Positions 2,965 to 47,668 of a stretch of 64,000 nt of DNA are shown one piece after another (the first letter of the stretch is position 1; every line of letters starts with the position of its first letter). Location of the stretch: NCBI GenBank assembly GCA_009773635.1, contig WSYC01000006.1, forward strand, positions 49,688 to 113,687, in the 5' to 3' direction. The notes below the pieces were generated by a model that saw only the letters and a list, made by a program, of their open reading frames with translations, searched no databases and had not been told where the DNA came from. The stretch comes from Beijerinckiaceae bacterium (GTDB lineage Bacteria > Pseudomonadota > Alphaproteobacteria > Rhizobiales > Beijerinckiaceae). Both the position numbers and the translations under genes were made by a program.

Positions 2965-3669
2965 ATGAACTATATCATCTCCATGGTGGTGTTCGGCGCC
3001 ATCGTCTGGTGGTTCGCGCTTGGGCCGGGCCGCAAGGCCGGGGACCAGCTCTCGCCGCTGACCCGCAAGCTCGTCGGTGCGGTTGCCGGTGGCGCTGGCA
3101 TCCTGCTTGCGCTCAAGGGGCGGATCGATTTCGCCATCGTGCTGATCTCGCTCTCGGCCTGGCTGCTTGGCTTCAAGCTGCCGGCGATGTTCGACCCGAT
3201 CGGCCGGGCGCGCCGCAGCGAAATCCACACGCGTGCGCTCACGGTTCTGATTGATCTCGGCACCGGCGATCTCGATGCGCAGATTACCGCCGGCACCTAT
3301 GCCGGTCGCACCTTGGGCAAGCTCGGCCCGCAGGAACTCATTGCTTTTGCCCGCGAGATGGCGGCGTTGGACCCGCAGGGATTAAACCTCGTGGCTCAGG
3401 ATCTGGACCGCCGGTCGCCCGGCTGGCGTCAGCACGTGCAGTTCGACGCGGCAGCGGGGAACGGCGCGGCGGCGAGCCAGAGTGAAATGCGTGACGAGGA
3501 AGCTTATCAGGTCCTTGGCCTTGAGCCCGGGGCTTCCGAAGAGGCCATTCGCGCGGCGCATCGGGCGCTGATCGCGCGGTTTCACCCCGATCGGGGCGGT
3601 TCCACCTACCTCGCGGCCATGGTCAACCGCGCCAAGGATATCGCGCTGGCGGCGCAGCGGCGCGGCTGA
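2965..3669 (+). CDS. Membrane-anchored J-domain protein (DnaJ-like)
   Basis: A 234-residue protein with hydrophobic segments near residues 1-20, 35-50 and 55-75, a linker, and a C-terminal J-domain from about residue 175 (YQVLGLEPGASEEAIRAAHR, then FHPDRGG with the HPD tripeptide that stimulates DnaK ATPase). The type III layout (no Gly/Phe or zinc region) suggests an inner-membrane co-chaperone presenting its J-domain to cytoplasmic DnaK, similar in design to Pam18/DjlA. It follows DUF1489 by 61 bases on the same strand. Client proteins are unknown. Confidence 0.85.
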   Translation: MNYIISMVVFGAIVWWFALGPGRKAGDQLSPLTRKLVGAVAGGAGILLALKGRIDFAIVLISLSAWLLGFKLPAMFDPIGRARRSEIHTRALTVLIDLGTGDLDAQITAGTYAGRTLGKLGPQELIAFAREMAALDPQGLNLVAQDLDRRSPGWRQHVQFDAAAGNGAAASQSEMRDEEAYQVLGLEPGASEEAIRAAHRALIARFHPDRGGSTYLAAMVNRAKDIALAAQRRG

Positions 3670-18518: not shown

Positions 18519-18823
18519 GCCCGCCCTTACGGCAAGCATCATGCCCGCTTGGCATTGCGGCGGATGAGCCTCTGACAGATCGAGCTCTTGCAGATGAGCT
18601 CTTGCCATTCGACACGACTTGCTTAGCCTTGGGCCTTGGCAGAATCACGGCCCGGAGCGCGGTGCGCCCGACCAGCTCTTCCTCGCGGGGTGCTCAGGTC
18701 CGCCGCATCTCCTGGGTCCCACGGGGTCAGGCCGGTTCAGGATCCGGGGGGTTGCCTCCTCACCGGGTTCTGGACCGGCCAACTTCCCTGCGGCAGGCCG
18801 CTCTTTCAGCAAAAGCACCGGAC
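18519..18823. other. Intergenic region between pleD and rpmG, no gene recognised
   Basis: About 300 bases without a convincing ORF. GAGCTCTTGC occurs twice (18581-18590 and 18596-18605). GC-rich stretches from 18650 to 18790 could fold but match no RNA family that I can recognise. A small RNA cannot be excluded. Confidence 0.4.
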
Positions 18824-24836: not shown

Positions 24837-27605
24837 CTATTTTGCGGCCTTTTTCGCAGCCGCCTTGGGTTTGGCGGCGGCCTTGGGTTTAGTCGCAGCC
24901 TCGGGCTTTGCCGTTGCCTTGAGCTTTGCCGTTGCCATGGGTTTAGCCGTTGCCTTGGGTTTAGCCGCTGCCTTCGCGGCTGCCTTGCTGCGTGCGCCCT
25001 TTTTCGCCGCCGGAATACCGCCTGTGGCTTCGATCCGCGCCGCGATCAGCCCCAGCGCGGCCTCAAGGGTGATGTCGTCCTTGTTGGCGGTCTTGGGGAT
25101 GGTCGCGTTGACGGTCGTCCAGTTGACGTAAGCGCCGTATTTGCCGTCGCGGACGGTGATATCGCCGCCATCCGGGTGCTGGCCGACAATGCGGCCCGCC
25201 ACGGCCGCGCCGCGCCCGAACCGCTTGCCGCCGCCGGCTTCTTTCGTCGCGATGAGATCGACCGCGCGGTTCATGCCGACCGTGAACACATCGTCGGTCG
25301 CTTCGAGGTTGGCGTAGGTCTTGCCGTGCTGGACGTAAGGCCCGTAGCGCCCGATGCCGGCGAGGATCGGCTCACCCGTCTCCGGGTGCTTGCCGATTTC
25401 ACGCGGCAGCGCGAGGAGTTGCAACGCGGCGTCAAGATCGACGCTCCTGACCGTCTGCCCCTTTGCGAGCGAGGCGCGCCTGGGCTTCTCGCCCTCGCCA
25501 AGCTGGACGTAGGGCCCGAAGCGCCCGTCACGGACCGTGACTTCGAGCCCTGTCGCCGGGTCCTTGCCGAGCACTATGGTGCCGGAGGCGCCGCCTTCCT
25601 CGCCTTCTTCACCGGCTGGCACCGAGAGGGGCCGCGTGAACCGGCATTCCGGGTAGTTCGAGCAGCCGATGAACGGGCCGAGCTTGCCGAGCTTGAGCGA
25701 AAGCTGGCCGGACCCGCATTTCGGGCAGGCGCGCGGGTTCGAACCATCCGCCTTCTCGGGGAAGAGCATCGGGCCGAGGTGCTCGTTGAGCCCGTCGAGC
25801 ACGGCGGTGGTGCGCTGTTCCTTGGCGCTCTCGATCGCGAGTTTGAAATCGGACCAGAACTCGCGCAGCACCTGCCGCCAGTCGACCTCGGCGTTGGAAA
25901 TCCGGTCGAGATCGTTTTCGAGATCGGCGGTAAAATCGTATTCGACGTATTTGAGGAAGAAGCTCTCCAGAAACGCCGTGACGATGCGGCCCTTGTCTTC
26001 GGGGACGAGGCGCTTCTTCTCGATCTTGACGTATTCGCGGTCGCGCAGCACGGCCAGCGTCGCCGCATAGGTCGACGGGCGGCCGATGCCGAGCTCTTCC
26101 ATGCGCTTGATCAGGCTCGCCTCGGAGTAGCGCGGCGGTGGCTCGGTGAAATGTTGCGCGATGGCCAGCGATTTCCTGGCGATCGCATCGCCGGCAGCCA
26201 TCGCGGGGAGGCGGCGGTTTTCCTCGTCGTCATCGTCATCCGAGGTTTCGGTATAGAGCGTGAGGAAGCCGTCGAACTGAACCACCTGGCCTGTTGCGCG
26301 CAGGTCGAGTGTCCGGGTGCCAGCCTTCGCCGGGTTCTTGTCTTTTGACGCGGAAACGTCACGCGAACCGGAGGCCACTTCGCTTGTTTCCGCTATGATA
26401 TCAACCGTCGTGCGTTCAAGCCGCGCCGATTCCATCTGCGAGGCGATGGTGCGCTTCCAGATCAGCTCGTAGAGGCGGAATTCATCGTCCGAGAGCGCGC
26501 TGCGCACGGCTTTGGGGATGCGGAACGCATCCGTCGGGCGGATACACTCATGCGCTTCCTGCGCGTTCTTCGCCTTGGTGGTATAGGCGCGCGGCACCTC
26601 GGGCAGATAGCCCTTGTCGTAGCCCTTGGCGATGAAGGCGCGGACCTGCGTCCGTGCTTCGGGCGCCATATCGACGCCATCGGTTCGCATATAGGTGATG
26701 AGACCCGTGGTCTCGCCGCCGATGTCGATGCCCTCGTACAGCTTCTGCGCGATGCGCATCGTGATTGCCGGGGCAAAGCCAAGCTTGCGCGAAGCTTCCT
26801 GCTGAAGGGTCGAGGTCGTGAACGGCGGGAAAGGATGCCGGCGGGCCGGCTTCGCTTCCACGGAGGCAACGGCAAGCCTTGCCGTCTCCAGCGCGGCCTT
26901 GAAATCCTCGGCTTCCTTGCCCGAACCGATATCGAGGCGGGTGATCTTCTTGCCGTCCGCGCCGGTGAGGCGGGCCTCGAACTCCTCGCCCTTGGGCGTC
27001 GCGAGCCTGGCGACCAGCGACCAGTATTCACGCGTCACGAACCGCTCGATCTCGCCTTCGCGGTCGCAGACGAGGCGCAGCGCGACCGATTGCACGCGCC
27101 CTGCCGAGCGGGCACCGGGCAGCTTGCGCCACAAAACCGGGGAAAGCTGGAAGCCGACGAGATAATCGAGCGCCCGGCGCGCGAGATAGGCGTCAACCAG
27201 CGCCTGATCGATCTGGCGCGGATGCGCCATCGCATAGGCCACCGCATCCTTGGTGATGGCGTTGAAGGTGACGCGCTCGATCTTCTTGTCTTTCAGGACG
27301 CGGCGGGATTTCAGCGCTTCAAGGAGATGCCACGAGATCGCTTCGCCTTCCCTGTCCGGGTCGGTCGCGAGGATGACGCTGTCGGCGTCCTTTACGGCAG
27401 CGGCGATGGTGGCCATCTGCTTCGAGCCGCGCCCGTCCAGCTCCCAGATCATCGCGAAATCGTTGTCGGGATCGACCGAGCCGTCCTTGGAGGGAAGGTC
27501 GCGCACGTGGCCATACGAGGCGATCACCTCGTAGCCGCGGCCGAGATACTTGTTGATCGTCTTGGCCTTCGAGGGCGATTCGACGATGACAACGCGATTT
27601 TCCAT
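24837..27605 (-). CDS. topA: DNA topoisomerase I
   Basis: A 922-residue type IA topoisomerase that relaxes negative supercoils. TOPRIM domain at the N-terminus (VVIVESPSKAKTINKYLG, ATDPDREGEAISWH), catalytic Tyr near residue 305 in LITYMRTDG, a C4-type zinc finger (CPKCGSGQLSLKLGKLGPFIGCSNYPEC), topo C-terminal repeats (ATGLEVTVRDGRFGPYVQLGE) and a long Lys/Ala-rich tail. Residues about 404-424 (EVASGSRDVSASKDKN) are an in-frame insertion matching a palindromic repeat found elsewhere in the window. The ATG at 27605 precedes the family-standard start. Confidence 0.96.
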   Translation of the reverse strand: MENRVVIVESPSKAKTINKYLGRGYEVIASYGHVRDLPSKDGSVDPDNDFAMIWELDGRGSKQMATIAAAVKDADSVILATDPDREGEAISWHLLEALKSRRVLKDKKIERVTFNAITKDAVAYAMAHPRQIDQALVDAYLARRALDYLVGFQLSPVLWRKLPGARSAGRVQSVALRLVCDREGEIERFVTREYWSLVARLATPKGEEFEARLTGADGKKITRLDIGSGKEAEDFKAALETARLAVASVEAKPARRHPFPPFTTSTLQQEASRKLGFAPAITMRIAQKLYEGIDIGGETTGLITYMRTDGVDMAPEARTQVRAFIAKGYDKGYLPEVPRAYTTKAKNAQEAHECIRPTDAFRIPKAVRSALSDDEFRLYELIWKRTIASQMESARLERTTVDIIAETSEVASGSRDVSASKDKNPAKAGTRTLDLRATGQVVQFDGFLTLYTETSDDDDDEENRRLPAMAAGDAIARKSLAIAQHFTEPPPRYSEASLIKRMEELGIGRPSTYAATLAVLRDREYVKIEKKRLVPEDKGRIVTAFLESFFLKYVEYDFTADLENDLDRISNAEVDWRQVLREFWSDFKLAIESAKEQRTTAVLDGLNEHLGPMLFPEKADGSNPRACPKCGSGQLSLKLGKLGPFIGCSNYPECRFTRPLSVPAGEEGEEGGASGTIVLGKDPATGLEVTVRDGRFGPYVQLGEGEKPRRASLAKGQTVRSVDLDAALQLLALPREIGKHPETGEPILAGIGRYGPYVQHGKTYANLEATDDVFTVGMNRAVDLIATKEAGGGKRFGRGAAVAGRIVGQHPDGGDITVRDGKYGAYVNWTTVNATIPKTANKDDITLEAALGLIAARIEATGGIPAAKKGARSKAAAKAAAKPKATAKPMATAKLKATAKPEAATKPKAAAKPKAAAKKAAK
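26336..26396 (-). repeat. Palindromic repeat element inserted in frame in topA
   Basis: Bases ACGCGAACCGG (26361-26371) and CCACTTCG (26375-26382) equal those of the intergenic element at 47562-47668, at the same distance from each other. Flanking arms GCGGAAAC (26350-26357) and GTTTCCGC (26386-26393) are perfectly complementary though they differ from the arms of the other copies. The copy is read through in frame as part of TopA. Confidence 0.75.
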
Positions 27606-27903
27606 CACTTCCCTTTCGGCAGTCCCGCCAGCAGCAGCCTGCAAACGCGTTGAGTCCCAAGACACAAGCCCCAGGACAAAACCTGCCCGGACGCCATTTC
27701 GATGTCCGGTGTCGTCAGTCAGCCGCAATCCCGGTCGGCGCGGATAAGTGGCGAGCGGGGCGGGGTTTGTCAAATCGGGTCAAACCAGCACGCAAGGATT
27801 GTGTATACTGCATAAAATTTAGATCTTTCGAAAGTTGCTGTTTACACATTTAGGTAAGGGTTGGTTGTCGCAGTGCCTCAGGGCCTTTGAAGGAAAAGCT
27901 GGA

Positions 27904-32454: not shown

Positions 32455-33078
32455 ATGGCGGAAATTGCCTCATTTGGCTGGCTGAACGCCGCGATTGCCC
32501 TGCTCTTCGGCTATCTCTGCGGCTCGATCCCCTTCGGGCTGATCCTGACACGGCTTGCGGGCACCCAGGATATCCGCACCATCGGTTCGCAGAGCATCGG
32601 CGCGACCAACGTGCTCAGAACCGGGCGCAAGGACCTTGCCGCCGGCACGCTGTTGCTCGACGCGCTCAAGGGGACAGTTGCGGTGCTGATCGCGCTGAAA
32701 TGGGGGCAGATGGCCGGCATCCTCGCGGGGCTCGGCGCGTTCCTTGGACATCTCTATCCAGTCTGGCTGAAATTCGAGGGCGGCAAGGGGGTCGCGACCT
32801 TCATCGGCGTTCTCATCGCGCTGTGGTGGCCGGGCGTGGTGCTCTTCGGCGCGATCTGGCTCGGCATCGCGTATCTGACGCGCTATTCGTCGCTGGCGGC
32901 GCTGGTGGCCTCGCTGCTTGTGGCGGTGACACGCATCGGGCTCGATATCGGCAGCGCAATCCAGAACGGGCTTGGCGGGTTTATCGTGGTGATGGTTGCG
33001 CTGCTGTGGTGGAAGCATCAGGCGAACATCAAGCGGCTCATTCTGGGCACCGAAGGCAAGATCGGCGAGAAGGGATGA
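32455..33078 (+). CDS. plsY: Glycerol-3-phosphate acyltransferase PlsY
   Basis: A 207-residue inner-membrane enzyme transferring acyl groups from acyl-phosphate to glycerol-3-phosphate, first step of phospholipid synthesis. PlsY motifs [31 protein letters not shown], and [18 protein letters not shown] are all present among about five helices. Its stop overlaps the dprA ATG (ATGA). Confidence 0.96.
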
Positions 33079-34295
33079 GGGCGCCGCGCGCGATGGCGGG
33101 GCGGGCAGCGGGCATCCAGCTGAGCGATCAGCAGCGGCTCGACTGGCTCCGGCTCTCCCGCGCGGAAGGCATCGGCCCGCGCACCTTTCAGGGACTGATC
33201 AACCGCTTCGGCGGCGCGGCTTCGGCGCTCGAAAACCTGCCGTTGCTCGCGAAATCGCGCGGGCGGCACGTACGTATTCCCTCAGTGGCAGAAATCGAAA
33301 CCGAGATGCGGCAGGCCGAACGCTTCGGTGTTCGCCTGCTGGCGTCCGGCGAGGCGGATTATCCGGCGCGGCTGCTTGAAATTGACGGGCCGCCGCCGAT
33401 CCTTGGTGTCCGTGGCAATCCTGATCTCTTGCATGCGCGGGCTGTCGCCATTGTCGGTGCGCGCAATGCCTCGGCCTCGGGGCGCAAAATGGCGGCGCGG
33501 CTGGCGGCGGGGCTGGCGGAGGCCGGGTATGTCGTGGTTTCCGGCCTCGCGCGCGGCATCGATACCGATGCGCATCGCGCCAGCCTCGATCGCGGCACGG
33601 TCGCGGTGCTGGCGGGGGGGCTCGACCGGCCGTATCCGCCGGAGAATGAGGCACTTTACGCCGAGATCGCCGAGAAGGGGGCGGCGATCTCCGAGATGCC
33701 GCTCGGACTTTCCCCGCGCGGGCGTGATTTTCCGCGCCGAAACCGGCTGATTTCCGGGCTTTCGCTCGGTGTCGTCGTCGTTGAGGCTGCGCGGCGCTCG
33801 GGCTCTCTCATCACGGCGCGCATGGCGGGCGAGCAGGGCCGGGAGGTGTTCGCCATTCCCGGCTCACCCCTTGATCCGCGCTGCGAAGGGACGAACGACC
33901 TGCTGCGCGAGGGGGCGTCCATCGTCACCGGCGTGGAGGATATTCTTGGCGTGCTCGCGCCGCTTGCGGGCGAGATCGAGCGCGCGCCGATGCTCTTCCG
34001 TGAGAAGCCGGCGGTGGAAAGCGACGCTCTGTTCGAGGAATGGGATGCGGCATCCGGGCAGGCCGAGGGGGCACTTTCCAGCTATGCGAGCGAAGATGAA
34101 GAGCCACCGGGTGACACTCTCGCGCCAGAACTACGGCTTCTGGCGCTGATGGCGGTGGACCCGGTCGAGATCGATCTGCTGGCACGGATGAGCGGGCTGC
34201 CGGCACGGGCTGTGCAGGAGGCCTTGATCGAACTCGAGATCACCGGCGCGATCACCCGCCACCCTGGCAATCGGGTGGCGCGGGCTATCAGCTAG
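33075..34295 (+). CDS. dprA: DNA-processing protein DprA
   Basis: A 406-residue protein that loads RecA onto incoming single-stranded DNA during transformation. N-terminal HhH-like region ([20 protein letters not shown]), Rossmann core with [28 protein letters not shown], and [27 protein letters not shown], then a C-terminal winged-helix ([26 protein letters not shown]). ATG at 33075 overlaps plsY; MAGRAAG at 33093 is an alternative. The TAG stop coincides with the start of a CTAG-bounded repeat. Confidence 0.96.
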
Positions 34296-34345
34296 AGTAT
34301 CCGCCCGCCAAGTGGGTACCGGTTGGCGGAAAAAGCGGATGTGGA
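34292..34345. repeat. CTAG-bounded palindromic repeat after dprA
   Basis: CTAGAG at 34292 is followed by ATCCGC, AAGTGG, CCGGTT and GCGGAT in the order found in the reverse complement of the 47562-47668 element. The arms ATCCGC (34299-34304) and GCGGAT (34335-34340) pair perfectly. The TAG inside the initial CTAG is the stop codon of dprA. Confidence 0.7.
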
Positions 34346-34356
34346 TGCTCCGGATT

Positions 34357-35265
34357 TCACGTCAACAGTGCAAGGAGCAGTGGCAGCGTCAGCATGGACA
34401 GCAGCGTCTGCCCGGTCGTGATCGCGGCCATCAGCGGCGCGTCGCCCCCCATTTTCCGGGCCAGCAGATACGAGGCGCTCGCCGTCGGCACACCGAGACA
34501 GACGATGGCGATCACCAGCCCATTGCCCGAGAGCCCCACAGCGTGCGCCAGCGCATAGCCGATCAACGGGGTGACAATGAGCCGCAGCAGGATGCCGAAG
34601 AGAAGCGCCGGGCTTGGGCGTTGCAGATCCCGGATGTTGAGCCCGGCCCCGACGAGCATCAAACCGGAGCCCAGCGCACAGTTGCCGACAATATCGAGCG
34701 CCATGCCGAGGGAGCGCGGAACCGGTGGTGCAAGAACGTTCAATGCCAGCCCGGCAAGCGTGCCGAGGATGAACGGATTGGTCGCCAGCCCACGCACCAG
34801 TGAACCCCCGCCGGTGCCGTGTTTCCTCAGAATGAGAACGGACAGCACATTGAGGAGCGGGATCAGCGCCGCAATTGCCACCGCGGCGAGCGTGACGCCA
34901 TCGTTCCCGAACAGGTTCGCGGACACCGCCAGCGCGATGAAGGCATTCCAGCGCAGCACCCCCTGGAAAATCGACGTGAAACCCGGCGGTGTCGTCCGAA
35001 AGAGCCGTTCGATCAGGGGACGAAAGGCGACCAGAAGCGCGCTCAGGATGGCGATGGTGCCGACCAGCGCGAAGGCCAGCTTGCCGAAGGGCACGGTTCC
35101 GAGCTTGGCATGGAGAAGGGTCTTCGCCACGAGAACCGGCACCAGAACATAGTAGGAAATGGTCTCGAAGCCTTGCCAGCTCGCCTCGTTGGGCAGAAGT
35201 GTCTGACGGAGCGCCCAGCCCAGCGCGATGACGAGAAAAACGGAAAGCAGGGAGTCGATGATCAC
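34357..35265 (-). CDS. AEC family transporter (auxin efflux carrier-like permease)
   Basis: A membrane protein of about 302 residues with ten hydrophobic segments. The first helix IIDSLLSVFLVIALGWALR and the segments NPFILGTLAGLALNVL and GSGLMLVGAGLNIRDL fit the AEC/Mem_trans family of malonate, malate or auxin-like permeases. Substrate unknown. The start is uncertain: GTG at 35265 (CAGG upstream) places the first helix at the N-terminus as in homologues; an ATG at 35325 would add 20 residues. Confidence 0.85.
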   Translation of the reverse strand: MIIDSLLSVFLVIALGWALRQTLLPNEASWQGFETISYYVLVPVLVAKTLLHAKLGTVPFGKLAFALVGTIAILSALLVAFRPLIERLFRTTPPGFTSIFQGVLRWNAFIALAVSANLFGNDGVTLAAVAIAALIPLLNVLSVLILRKHGTGGGSLVRGLATNPFILGTLAGLALNVLAPPVPRSLGMALDIVGNCALGSGLMLVGAGLNIRDLQRPSPALLFGILLRLIVTPLIGYALAHAVGLSGNGLVIAIVCLGVPTASASYLLARKMGGDAPLMAAITTGQTLLSMLTLPLLLALLT

Positions 35266-35538
35266 GCCGGGCACCTGACAGAAAGGAAGCACGACCCTAG
35301 CAAGGTCCGGCAGCACCTGTCGCATGAATTCGCGTGATCGGAGCGGCGCGGTGCATGAATGGATGCTGCCGACCCACACAGGGCATCATCATCTTTACGA
35401 TGACTGGAAACTATCTTGGCCGTTCAGCGTTGATTTATGTGAGTGCCTATACAACATTTGACGAATGTTTCGCAGGTGCGGCAACACCGCCCCGGAAATC
35501 GGCCAGAGTGTCTGGTCCGGCTCATGGAGGGCCTCGAT

Positions 35539-45147: not shown

Positions 45148-47565
45148 ATGCGGATGATCGCGCGTTTCTTCGCGTTTCTGTTTGGAACGGCCACCCTGGT
45201 CGGGCTGCTTGGTGCTGCTGTTGCTGGCTATGTCATCTGGCACTACTCGCAGGATCTGCCCGATCACGCCCAGCTTGCGAAATACGAGCCGCCGGTGACG
45301 ACGCGCGTCCATGCGGCGGATGGCACGCTGCTGGCCGAATATGCCCGCGAGCGCCGCCTCTATCTGCCGATCCAGGCGATGCCGAAGCTGCTGATCGCGG
45401 CCTACCTCTCGGCGGAAGACAAGAATTTCTACAAGCATGGCGGTGTCGATCCGGAAGGCATCGCGCGCGCCATCCTGCGCGGCCGCTCGTCGGGTGGCCG
45501 CCAGCAGGGCGCCTCGACGATCACGCAGCAGGTGGCGAAGAACTTCTTCCTCTCGCCCGAGCAGACCATGGACCGGAAATTGCGCGAGGCGCTGCTCGCC
45601 TTCCGGCTGGAGGCGACCTTCTCGAAGGACAAGATCCTCGAACTCTATCTCAACCAGATCTATCTCGGCTTCGGCAACTATGGCGTCGCGGCGGCAGCGC
45701 TCAATTATTACGGCAAATCCGTCCACGAACTGACGATTGCGGAAGCGGCCTATCTTGCCGCCTTGCCCAAGGCGCCCTCGACCTATCATCCGATCACCAA
45801 CCGTGACGCTGCGGTCGGACGCCGCAACTACGTCATCGATCGCATGGTCGATAACGGCTACATCACCAAGGAAGACGGCGTGGCCGCCCGCGCCGAGCCG
45901 CTGGTGGTGATTTTCCGCCAGCTGTCGCCGAATTCCTACGCCGCCGGCTTCTTCGCCGAGGAAGTGCGCCGCGATCTTGCCGAGCGCTATGGCTCGAAAA
46001 AGCTCTACGAAGGCGGGCTCTCCGTCCGCTCGACGCTGGATCCGAAGTTGCAGATTTATGCCCGCAAGGCGCTTTCCGACGGCCTCGTGCGCTACGATGA
46101 GGCGCGCGGCTGGCGTGGCTCGACGGAGCGCATCCTGTCGACCGGGGATTGGGGCCTGCTGCTTGCCGAGGTGCCGACGCTGACCGATATCGACCCCTGG
46201 CGGCTGGCGGTCGTGCTCTCGGCCGATGATACACAGGCGCAGATCGGGCTCCAGCCGGCCAAGCTCGGCGGTGGGCAGATCGATCGCAAGCGCGAGACCG
46301 GCGTTATCATGGCCGATGGTATGCGCTGGACCGGCAAGCGGCCGCGCGCGGCGCTGAACCCCGGGGATGTCATCTATGTCGAACCGATCGACGGCAAGCC
46401 GGGCCAGTTCCGCCTGCGGCAGGTGCCGGAAATCTCCGGCGCCATCGTCGCGATGGACCCGCAGACGGGACGCGTCAGAGCGATGGTCGGCGGCTTCTCC
46501 TTCGACAAGAGCGAATTCAACCGCGCGACGCAGGCGCTCAGGCAGGTCGGCTCCGCCTTCAAGCCGTTGGTTTATGCGACCGCGCTCGACAATGGCTACA
46601 CGCCCTCCAGCATCATCCTTGACGAGCCGATCGAGGTCGATCAGGGACCGGGGCAGGAGGTCTGGCGGCCGGAGAACTACGACGGCAAATCGACTGGTCC
46701 GCATACGCTGCGCTACGGCATCGAGCGCTCGAAGAACCTGATGACCGTGCGCCTTGCGCGGGATCTTGGCATGCCGCTCGTCGCGGAATACGCCAAGCGC
46801 TTCGGCATCTACGACGACATGCTGCCCGTGCTGGCGATGTCGCTCGGTGCCGGTGAAACCACCGTCCTGCGCATGACGGCAGCCTATTCGATGCTCGCCA
46901 ACGGCGGCCGTCGTATCCGCCCGACGCTGATCGACCGCATTCAGGATCGCTGGGGCGCCACGATCTACAAGCACGACGAGCGCATCTGCAAGGATTGCCC
47001 GGCGGAAGGCTGGACCAGCCAGGACGAGCCGCGCCTCGTCGACAAGCGCGAACGCGTTATCGACCCGATGTCCGCTTACCAGATGGTCTCGATCATGACC
47101 GGCGTCATCCAGCGCGGCACGGCGGGCTCACTTAAGCCGCTCGATCGCGCGCTCGGCGGCACGGATGCCGCCCCGCGTCTTGCCGGCAAGACCGGCACGA
47201 CGAACGACGCCAAGGACGTGTGGTTCGTCGGCTTCTCGCCGGAACTCGCGGTCGGGGTCTATCTCGGGTATGACAAGCCGCGCTCGCTCGGCACCTCCGC
47301 GACCGCCGGCCAATATGCCGCGCCGATCTTCGGGGCCTTCATGAAGGATGCGCTGGCGGGCAAGCCTTCCTACACCTTCAAGCCGCCGGTCGACATCAAG
47401 TTCATCCGCGTCAATGCCGCAACCGGCCAACGTGATGCCTCGGGCATTCTCGAACCTTTCAAGCCCAAAACCGCGCCGCCGGAGAGTTACAGCTTCGGCA
47501 CCACCACGGCCGGTTCTCCCGGGCCGGCCAGCGGCGTGGGAGCGACGACCGGTGGGCTTTACTAG
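45148..47565 (+). CDS. mrcA: Bifunctional penicillin-binding protein 1A
   Basis: An 805-residue class A PBP. N-terminal membrane helix (FLFGTATLVGLLGAAVAGYVIW), glycosyltransferase 51 domain with AEDKNFYKHGGVD and GASTITQQVAKNFFL, and transpeptidase domain with the active Ser469 in GSAFKPL and KTGTTNDAKDVWFVGF. An OB-like insert (about 315-420) precedes the transpeptidase, as in PBP1A. Its TAG stop lies inside the CTAG that starts a repeat element. Confidence 0.95.
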   Translation: MRMIARFFAFLFGTATLVGLLGAAVAGYVIWHYSQDLPDHAQLAKYEPPVTTRVHAADGTLLAEYARERRLYLPIQAMPKLLIAAYLSAEDKNFYKHGGVDPEGIARAILRGRSSGGRQQGASTITQQVAKNFFLSPEQTMDRKLREALLAFRLEATFSKDKILELYLNQIYLGFGNYGVAAAALNYYGKSVHELTIAEAAYLAALPKAPSTYHPITNRDAAVGRRNYVIDRMVDNGYITKEDGVAARAEPLVVIFRQLSPNSYAAGFFAEEVRRDLAERYGSKKLYEGGLSVRSTLDPKLQIYARKALSDGLVRYDEARGWRGSTERILSTGDWGLLLAEVPTLTDIDPWRLAVVLSADDTQAQIGLQPAKLGGGQIDRKRETGVIMADGMRWTGKRPRAALNPGDVIYVEPIDGKPGQFRLRQVPEISGAIVAMDPQTGRVRAMVGGFSFDKSEFNRATQALRQVGSAFKPLVYATALDNGYTPSSIILDEPIEVDQGPGQEVWRPENYDGKSTGPHTLRYGIERSKNLMTVRLARDLGMPLVAEYAKRFGIYDDMLPVLAMSLGAGETTVLRMTAAYSMLANGGRRIRPTLIDRIQDRWGATIYKHDERICKDCPAEGWTSQDEPRLVDKRERVIDPMSAYQMVSIMTGVIQRGTAGSLKPLDRALGGTDAAPRLAGKTGTTNDAKDVWFVGFSPELAVGVYLGYDKPRSLGTSATAGQYAAPIFGAFMKDALAGKPSYTFKPPVDIKFIRVNAATGQRDASGILEPFKPKTAPPESYSFGTTTAGSPGPASGVGATTGGLY

Positions 47566-47668
47566 AGCGTTTTCAGTGAATTCACATTCACTTCATTTGC
47601 TCTATCTTTTTGTTTTGTCGCATTTTCTTTACGCGAACCGGAATCCACTTCGTTCGAAAATGCTCTAG
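47562..47668. repeat. 107-bp CTAG-bounded palindromic element
   Basis: Termini CTAGAGCGTTTTC and GAAAATGCTCTAG are inverted repeats with one mismatch. The right part contains GCATTTTC and GAAAATGC arms around ACGCGAACCGG and CCACTTCG, the core shared with 26336-26396 and 34292-34345. This core is widely scattered in Hyphomicrobiales genomes from what I recall of them. The left CTAG holds the stop codon of mrcA. Confidence 0.85.

Follow-up and report, generated by a model that had tools for sequence, protein, structure and literature searches.

The DNA topoisomerase I gene topA on a 64,000-nucleotide (nt) stretch of a Beijerinckiaceae genome (contig WSYC01000006.1, positions 49,688 to 113,687; referred to as the window) carries a palindrome inserted in frame in its coding sequence. 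The segment is a true insertion and the same element as a repeat that lies between genes at 47562-47668, and it belongs to a family with further in-frame members in other conserved genes of this genome. In-frame insertion of this small, apparently mobile palindrome is real and recurrent; it behaves like the Rickettsia palindromic elements (RPEs). Very probably, the topA segment was left by a non-autonomous mobile palindrome whose in-gene copies survive as a tolerated, translated and near-neutral peptide. The topA copy is made up as follows.

24837..27605, minus strand: topA, the host gene, taken from its ATG and assigned by profile matches to solved topoisomerase I chains
26334..26396, minus strand: in-frame insert of 63 nt or 21 residues, which encodes IAETSEVASGSRDVSASKDKN and is missing in all the other TopA genes examined
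26350..26393, minus strand: quasi-palindrome of 44 nt, the core of the element within the insert
26350..26357: outer arm GCGGAAAC, of which 8/8 bases pair with the opposite arm
26386..26393: opposite outer arm GTTTCCGC
26364..26382: inner hairpin CGAACCGG-NNN-CCACTTCG, with the apex NNN at 26372-26374 freely variable among copies

The mechanical open reading frame (ORF) of topA begins further out, at a TTG at 27773. Folding of the 44-nt palindrome as DNA and of the 63-nt insert as RNA gave a z of -3.5 in both cases. In this copy the apex trinucleotide between CGAACCGG and CCACTTCG is AGG. A first-pass annotation of the window had noted that blocks of the topA segment recur in the intergenic element and that the arms of the two copies differ, each pair being perfectly complementary. 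Both observations were confirmed: the block ACGCGAACCGGNNNCCACTTCG occurs with 0 mismatches at 26361-26382 in topA and at 47631-47652 in the intergenic copy, and the arms are GCGGAAAC/GTTTCCGC in the former and GCATTTTC/GAAAATGC in the latter. When the window was searched for ACGCGAACCGGNNNCCACTTCG with up to 3 mismatches, 4 matches were obtained against 0.06 expected, the two others having 3 mismatches each. The coordinates and arms that had been given for the topA copy also hold; the insert size, put at 18-20 residues, had to be corrected to 21 residues (63 nt, IAETSEVASGSRDVSASKDKN).

The segment was absent from 109/109 TopA loci elsewhere, each showing a gap of 15 residues or more opposite the insert. 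Of these loci, 29 were supplied by the best among 60 other genomes that were searched, and 80 are matches listed from contigs of named genomes; among the matches listed, the named-genome loci are nearly all labelled Alphaproteobacteria. TopA of G006, a genome of the same genus, is 90% identical and also lacks the insert. A single TopA match was found in the window's own genome, and the insert-bearing gene is therefore the only copy found. The alignment of relatives, in which a segment common to all of them and unlike the repeat had been proposed as the refuting outcome, came out in favour of an insertion. In the profile alignment to solved chains the insert falls in a turn of variable length, which has one residue more in 6pcm_A and four fewer in 9gda_F, chains that we take to be those of M. 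smegmatis and E. coli, respectively.

The repeat family was sought in the window's own genome (G000; 3.24 Mb in 35 contigs). The pattern CGAACCGGNNNCCACTTCG with at most one mismatch gave 59 copies, and the reversed control 0. A covariance model was built from an alignment of 51 of these 59; the eight rows left out were four of the five tandem copies of L031, those of L011, L025 and L037, and one L044 copy with a foreign arm. With this model the whole-genome search that had been asked for earlier yielded 95 copies at E<=1e-3, intergenic as well as in frame. In the 51-copy alignment 98.5% of the stem cells are paired and two-sided change is seen in 50 cells, against a mean of 6.8 after shuffling, and pairing falls to 24-47% when the partner is slid by 1-3 columns. 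The outer arms vary block-wise, not base by base, and are mostly still complementary; GCATTTTC is the most frequent type, next to GCAAAATC, GCGAAATC, GCCTTTGC, GCGGAAAC and others. The earlier statement that the stem was retained by compensatory change is correct as to the outcome; stepwise compensation, however, explains it no better than block-wise replacement of arms or templated correction. At the apex the entropy is 1.74-1.85 bits, whereas none of the five bases on each side exceeds 0.28 (74 copies), a contrast that is exaggerated by the search pattern, which fixed the flanks, and by the filtering of the tabulated copies for GTGG. Weaker members of the family have different inner arms around a common AAGTGGNNNCCGGTT apex.

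To establish which copies interrupt genes, 15 G000 copies that seemed to lie within coding sequence were picked by eye, mainly in one frame, and their host genes were compared with orthologues from the congeners G006 and G015. In 14/15 of them the congeneric orthologue is without the element and has a gap of about 17-28 residues at that place. The host genes, named by NCBIfam and Pfam matches, are listed below; the net inserts are mostly 60-63 nt, and the remaining copies number 81/95.

acetolactate-synthase-like thiamine pyrophosphate enzyme: insert of 20 residues, from orthologue comparison
serS: insert of 20 residues, name above the NCBIfam cut-off
topA: insert of 21 residues, from orthologue comparison
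diaminopropionate ammonia-lyase: insert of about 21 residues, above the NCBIfam cut-off
argC: insert of about 17-21 residues, above the NCBIfam cut-off
GlcE-like oxidase subunit: insert of 20-21 residues, name below the NCBIfam cut-off
hemH: insert of 19 residues, above the NCBIfam cut-off
LutB-type protein: insert of 26 residues, above the NCBIfam cut-off
AmpD-like amidase: insert of about 21-22 residues, name below the NCBIfam cut-off
HdaA-like protein: insert of about 28 residues, name below the NCBIfam cut-off
Ser/Thr kinase: insert of 21 residues, name below the NCBIfam cut-off
queA: insert of 20 residues, above the NCBIfam cut-off
gamma-glutamylcyclotransferase-like protein: insert of 21 residues, from orthologue comparison
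xdhC: insert of 18 residues in a weakly conserved stretch, read from the opposite strand (FSFDASASREPVPTSLAEA)

Copies at gene ends (a putative pdxJ, a ZnuB-like gene and livM) were left out of the in-frame count. The proposal that a small mobile palindrome tolerates insertion into coding sequence is supported by these 13 in-frame copies besides that of topA, all absent from congeneric orthologues. The mobility of the element is deduced from the comparison of occupied with empty sites.

The in-gene copies are usually read as A-x-S-S-E-V-x-x-G-S-R-E-x-x-A-S, a peptide rich in S, E, G and small residues, and this frame is used in 13/14 of the homology-confirmed copies, xdhC being the exception. 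Because the candidates for the homology comparison had been selected by eye and mostly in the usual frame, only a codon-usage test made without homology bears on the frame bias. When both flanks of each of the 95 copies were scored in this way, the score exceeded 0.05 in both flanks for 11, and 11/11 of these have one frame and one strand (p 3e-9 against one in six). With an initial cut-off of 0.15, 6 copies counted as internal, each read in the usual frame; the value of 0.05 was adopted once the ranking was known. The test misses the homology-confirmed acetolactate-synthase-like gene (0.00), hdaA (0.03) and xdhC (-0.07). Two candidate causes of the bias were rejected. Stop codons do not account for it, four of the six palindrome frames being open in 85-92 of the 95 copies, nor does hydropathy alone, frame COD1 being about as hydrophilic (-0.79 versus -0.76).

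All 14 in-gene copies have perfect 8-bp arms, compared with 47/65 of the other 44-nt copies (one-sided p 0.018), and among them the 5' arm occurs in 10 different sequences. Of the copies with AAAAT-type arms (GCAAAATC/GATTTTGC), 6/7 lie in genes, against 8/88 for all other types (Fisher p 2e-5). Both the perfect-arm and the arm-type test were chosen after the data had been seen. The serS inserts of G000, G004 and G010 have a common site and common arms, and their apices differ (GGA, TAT and CCT), a comparison that is free of the pattern and filter bias mentioned above. Tentatively, the genus might possess a coding-adapted hairpin subfamily with polar arms GCAAAATC/GATTTTGC (A-K-S-S-E-V...R-E-D-F-A) that re-enters the same serS and hemH codons in separate lineages. 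If so, a selfish element would have become fitted to translated sequence, its apex being rewritten and its stem kept perfect.

The element was present in 17/17 congeneric genomes; at E<=1e-4, and with up to 150 candidates scored per genome, the copies numbered from 3 to at least 145. In-frame copies were found in valS, cysS and pgi of both G004 and G010 and in thyA of G010, genes that were named by family search; serS also carries one in G004 and G010 and hemH in G016, these two being named by their G000 orthologues. Further in-frame copies lie in a putative SDR oxidoreductase gene (G008) and a putative uvrB C-terminal region (G002); two putative ones, in glyS (G014) and a glycine dehydrogenase subunit gene (G009), were recognized by eye, and the codon-usage test does not flag them. 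Among these sites, empty counterparts in congeners were checked for serS, hemH and the second of two sites in valS of G004 only; in that gene (L298) two in-frame palindromes lie 63 residues apart, and the second site is empty in the sister G010. The genus-wide example loci had been selected for long frames and are excluded from the frame statistic; the test assigned the usual frame to 14 and another frame to 1 of the 55 copies in these loci. In G006, the nearest relative, 0/28 copies in its 30 best-scoring loci are internal, although one (L175) may extend the N-terminus of a putative queG-like gene. Among the 30 best loci of G000 there are 5 in-frame copies confirmed by homology (argC, lutB, amiD, xdhC and serS).

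Outside the genus, matches were obtained in 11/18 named genomes, including Bosea, Methylobacterium, Bradyrhizobium and Shinella; the repeat family is present in many, not all, of the Hyphomicrobiales examined and is normally extragenic. By codon usage 1/117 copies from other genera is internal, on a codon table that was trained on the window and may under-call there. The samples were G131 (0/21), G149 (0/20), named genomes such as Bosea, Bradyrhizobium and Methylobacterium (0/25), and fourteen further high-copy genomes of nine genera (1/51), for which 16/46 loci were picked for long frames. Because of this single internal copy among 117, life inside genes looks like a trait of this genus that is rare elsewhere in the samples. 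The sole extra-genus in-frame copy (L434, G127:C1:4152038-4155079) lies in a gene for a putative GluQ-type synthetase.

Some observations concern extragenic copies and possible routes of spread. Upstream of a putative leuD an extragenic copy occupies the same place in G004, G008, G007 and G010 (L340-L343), and its apex trinucleotide is identical in the four congeners, unlike that of serS. Carriage by plasmids was considered as a route and rejected: matches in 18 plasmid records extend over 33-66% of the 107-bp composite form described below, and none reaches 80%. In the three of these records that were inspected, all from other genera (H6, H8 and H17; L418, L419 and L420), the element runs 3-4 nt into the 3' end of a gene. 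Carriage by phages was rejected too; 12 stretches of viral contigs (L406-L417) contain the core pattern, and these stretches are known from the core match alone.

The other copies in the window are the following.

47562..47668: composite intergenic form of 107 bp, with two palindromes between inverted CTAGAGC(A/G)TTTTC ends
47620..47663, minus strand: 44-nt palindrome inside the composite, of the same type as the topA insert
34291..34352 (G000:C6:83978-84039), plus strand: third, weaker copy with the variant inner arms CGCCAAGTGG...CCGGTTGGCGG (28.7 bits, E 1.2e-4)

The terminal CTAG of the composite (47562-47565) provides the TAG stop of the ORF at 45148-47565. By a strict test, 7/95 G000 copies have the composite form, and 0/14 of the in-gene copies. 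The weaker copy is placed between the mechanical ORFs 32700-34295 (plus strand) and 34357-35379 (minus strand). At the gathering threshold Rfam detected in the window only EcpR1 (RF02500, 70.6 bits) at 18678-18785, which is unrelated to the element. Elsewhere in G000, five tandem copies with a 60-nt (20-codon) period were seen in L031 at 3096-3384 (G000:C21:106095-106383), between the 3' ends of two genes, one of them putatively pyruvate-kinase-like; tandem arrays also occur in G006 (period 58) and in G008 and G010 (period 62). Copies of L011, L025, L037 and L044 have GAACCGAAGGTCC... in place of one arm; this looks like another small palindrome, nested within the element.

The way in which the element persists can be pictured as follows. 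The unit, a 44-nt hairpin in about 60 nt, would move as a folded single strand, the hairpin being the form that is recognized or copied, and its copies would land in many places. Survivors inside genes would need an inserted length that is a multiple of three, an orientation giving the small, hydrophilic and stop-free reading quoted above, and a site that tolerates about 20 extra residues. Judging from the open frames, the insert peptide is probably translated within the enzyme and roughly neutral. The stem may persist since the folded hairpin is what moves or is copied, or because its arms are corrected against each other, and the element would spread for its own sake, as has been proposed for RPEs.

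Three other explanations were weighed against this one. The topA segment could be ancestral, lost by the relatives and similar to the repeat by convergence. The variable length of the site in 6pcm_A and 9gda_F agrees with such losses, but all 109 other TopA loci are without the segment, the likeness to the repeat extends to the inner hairpin and to perfect unique arms, and thirteen unrelated genes of the same genome bear the element, so that this origin is barely credible. A second possibility is that the hairpin is excised at the mRNA level or bypassed by the ribosome, leaving a protein that never contains the insert. Mitochondrial byp elements offer a model for the skipping of inserts by ribosomes, and both the strong RNA hairpin and the accommodation of the insert by conserved genes without disruption would suit it. 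A removed spacer needs no open frame, however, whereas a single open frame on a single strand is used by each of the 11 G000 copies that have a coding signal in both flanks, and the homology-confirmed inserts leave the frame of the host open. Removal before or during translation is therefore very unlikely.

A function selected in the host, in which the insert acts as an intragenic RNA or DNA signal (for mRNA stability, polarity or binding in the nucleoid or in replication), is somewhat less remote but still improbable. The perfect arms of 14/14 in-gene copies, against 47/65 of the others in a post hoc test, would be expected of a signal, as would the good conservation of the inner hairpin, which the search pattern favours. 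Perfect arms could, however, equally mean that the in-gene copies are young or that the search recognizes only good ones. Moreover, the in-gene sites are mostly species-specific and spread over unrelated enzymes, and congeners hold anything from 3 to at least 145 copies.

Several points weigh against insertion of a mobile palindrome surviving as a translated peptide in one favoured frame. The homology candidates were selected while mainly the usual frame was viewed, and the fifteenth of them, a putative imuB-like gene with no Pfam match, has its copy in a variable region. The next-ranked G000 copy below the codon-usage cut-off (0.03) is in a different frame, and the congeneric copy L344 (G005:C4) passes the test in a different frame and strand with scores of 0.09-0.10. 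The same-site copies of serS (G000, G004 and G010) and hemH (G000 and G016) conflict with the gene trees. With the insert removed, hemH of G000 is sister to that of G006, which is empty, and the insert-bearing G016 is placed elsewhere; in the serS tree G000 falls outside the G004/G010 pair; the deep forks of both trees are weakly supported. This conflict implies short-tract recombination, repeated use of a site or an old insertion with many losses, and some same-site copies may thus be recombination patches or one site reused. As to the means of transposition, the Y1/RAYT transposase PF01797, the only transposase family searched, was found in 0/17 congeneric genomes; the control search matched 5/14 named genomes. 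On this result, mobilization by RAYT or IS200 was rejected. Finally, the self-complementary CTAG ends and the divergence between species blur the junctions in which a target-site duplication would be sought, and by eye no clear duplication was seen at the valS junction of G004 and G010.

REP elements, short hairpins in dozens to hundreds of copies, are moved by RAYT (Y1) transposases (PMC2817692, PMC3733652). The present element resembles them as a short hairpin of comparable copy number, and differs from the REP/RAYT system in the Y1 result for the 17 congeneric genomes. To our knowledge, block-variable arms around a fixed inner hairpin are no hallmark of REP elements. RIME1, a rhizobial intergenic repeat, is reportedly about 108 bp long with two palindromes; the 107-bp composite at 47562-47668, which also has two palindromes, may be comparable to it. 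Unlike RIMEs, the in-gene copies described here have the single-palindrome form (0/14 composite). RIMEs (Osteras et al. 1995) and Sm-repeats are intergenic repeats of rhizobia (PMC2573895, PMC2245857), and the Br-REP1/2 elements of Bradyrhizobium have different consensus sequences (PMC5082802). Miniature inverted-repeat transposable elements (MITEs) with occasional in-frame fusions, about 100-200 bp long, include ERIC, the 107-bp form of Correia and QMITE of Coxiella (PMC2229807, PMC5896051); QMITE makes occasional in-frame insertions in Coxiella, and QMITE2-like stems occur in Bradyrhizobium and Rhodopseudomonas (PMC5896051). Like MITEs, the element is a small non-autonomous repeat, and its composite has the terminal inverted repeats CTAGAGC(A/G)TTTTC. 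Unlike them, it has 14 in-frame copies in conserved genes of one genome, and neither a parent insertion sequence nor a clear target duplication was found.

Palindromes that encode protein segments have been regarded as peculiar to Rickettsia and Wolbachia, and have often been connected with the small genomes of these bacteria. No report of them in Hyphomicrobiales was found in titles and abstract openings, a coverage outside which most subscription journals fall. A 2024 review regards a similar mechanism in other prokaryotes as conceivable (PMC10969869). In the present case the host genus has assemblies of about 2.4-4.2 Mb, and the enzymes affected include tRNA synthetases, ferrochelatase and topoisomerase I. 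Comparison of its close species could serve to measure the frequency, site choice, fitness cost and mechanism of selfish in-frame insertion, and there is a warning in it that protein families may hold such peptides as unexplained insertions. RPEs, with lengths given as 105-146 or about 150 bp, form in-frame fusions with conserved genes of Rickettsia (Ogata et al. 2000, 2002; PMC2229807, PMC10969869). The present element, a 44-nt palindrome in a unit of about 60 nt, is shorter than these (about 100-150 bp) and belongs to another bacterial order; the first-pass comparison with RPEs may not extend to membership. It is apt for behaviour: like RPEs, the element is found both between genes (81/95 others) and in frame in conserved genes (14/95), and its in-gene copies share a frame and a peptide, in 11/11 cases by codon usage and in 13/14 by homology.

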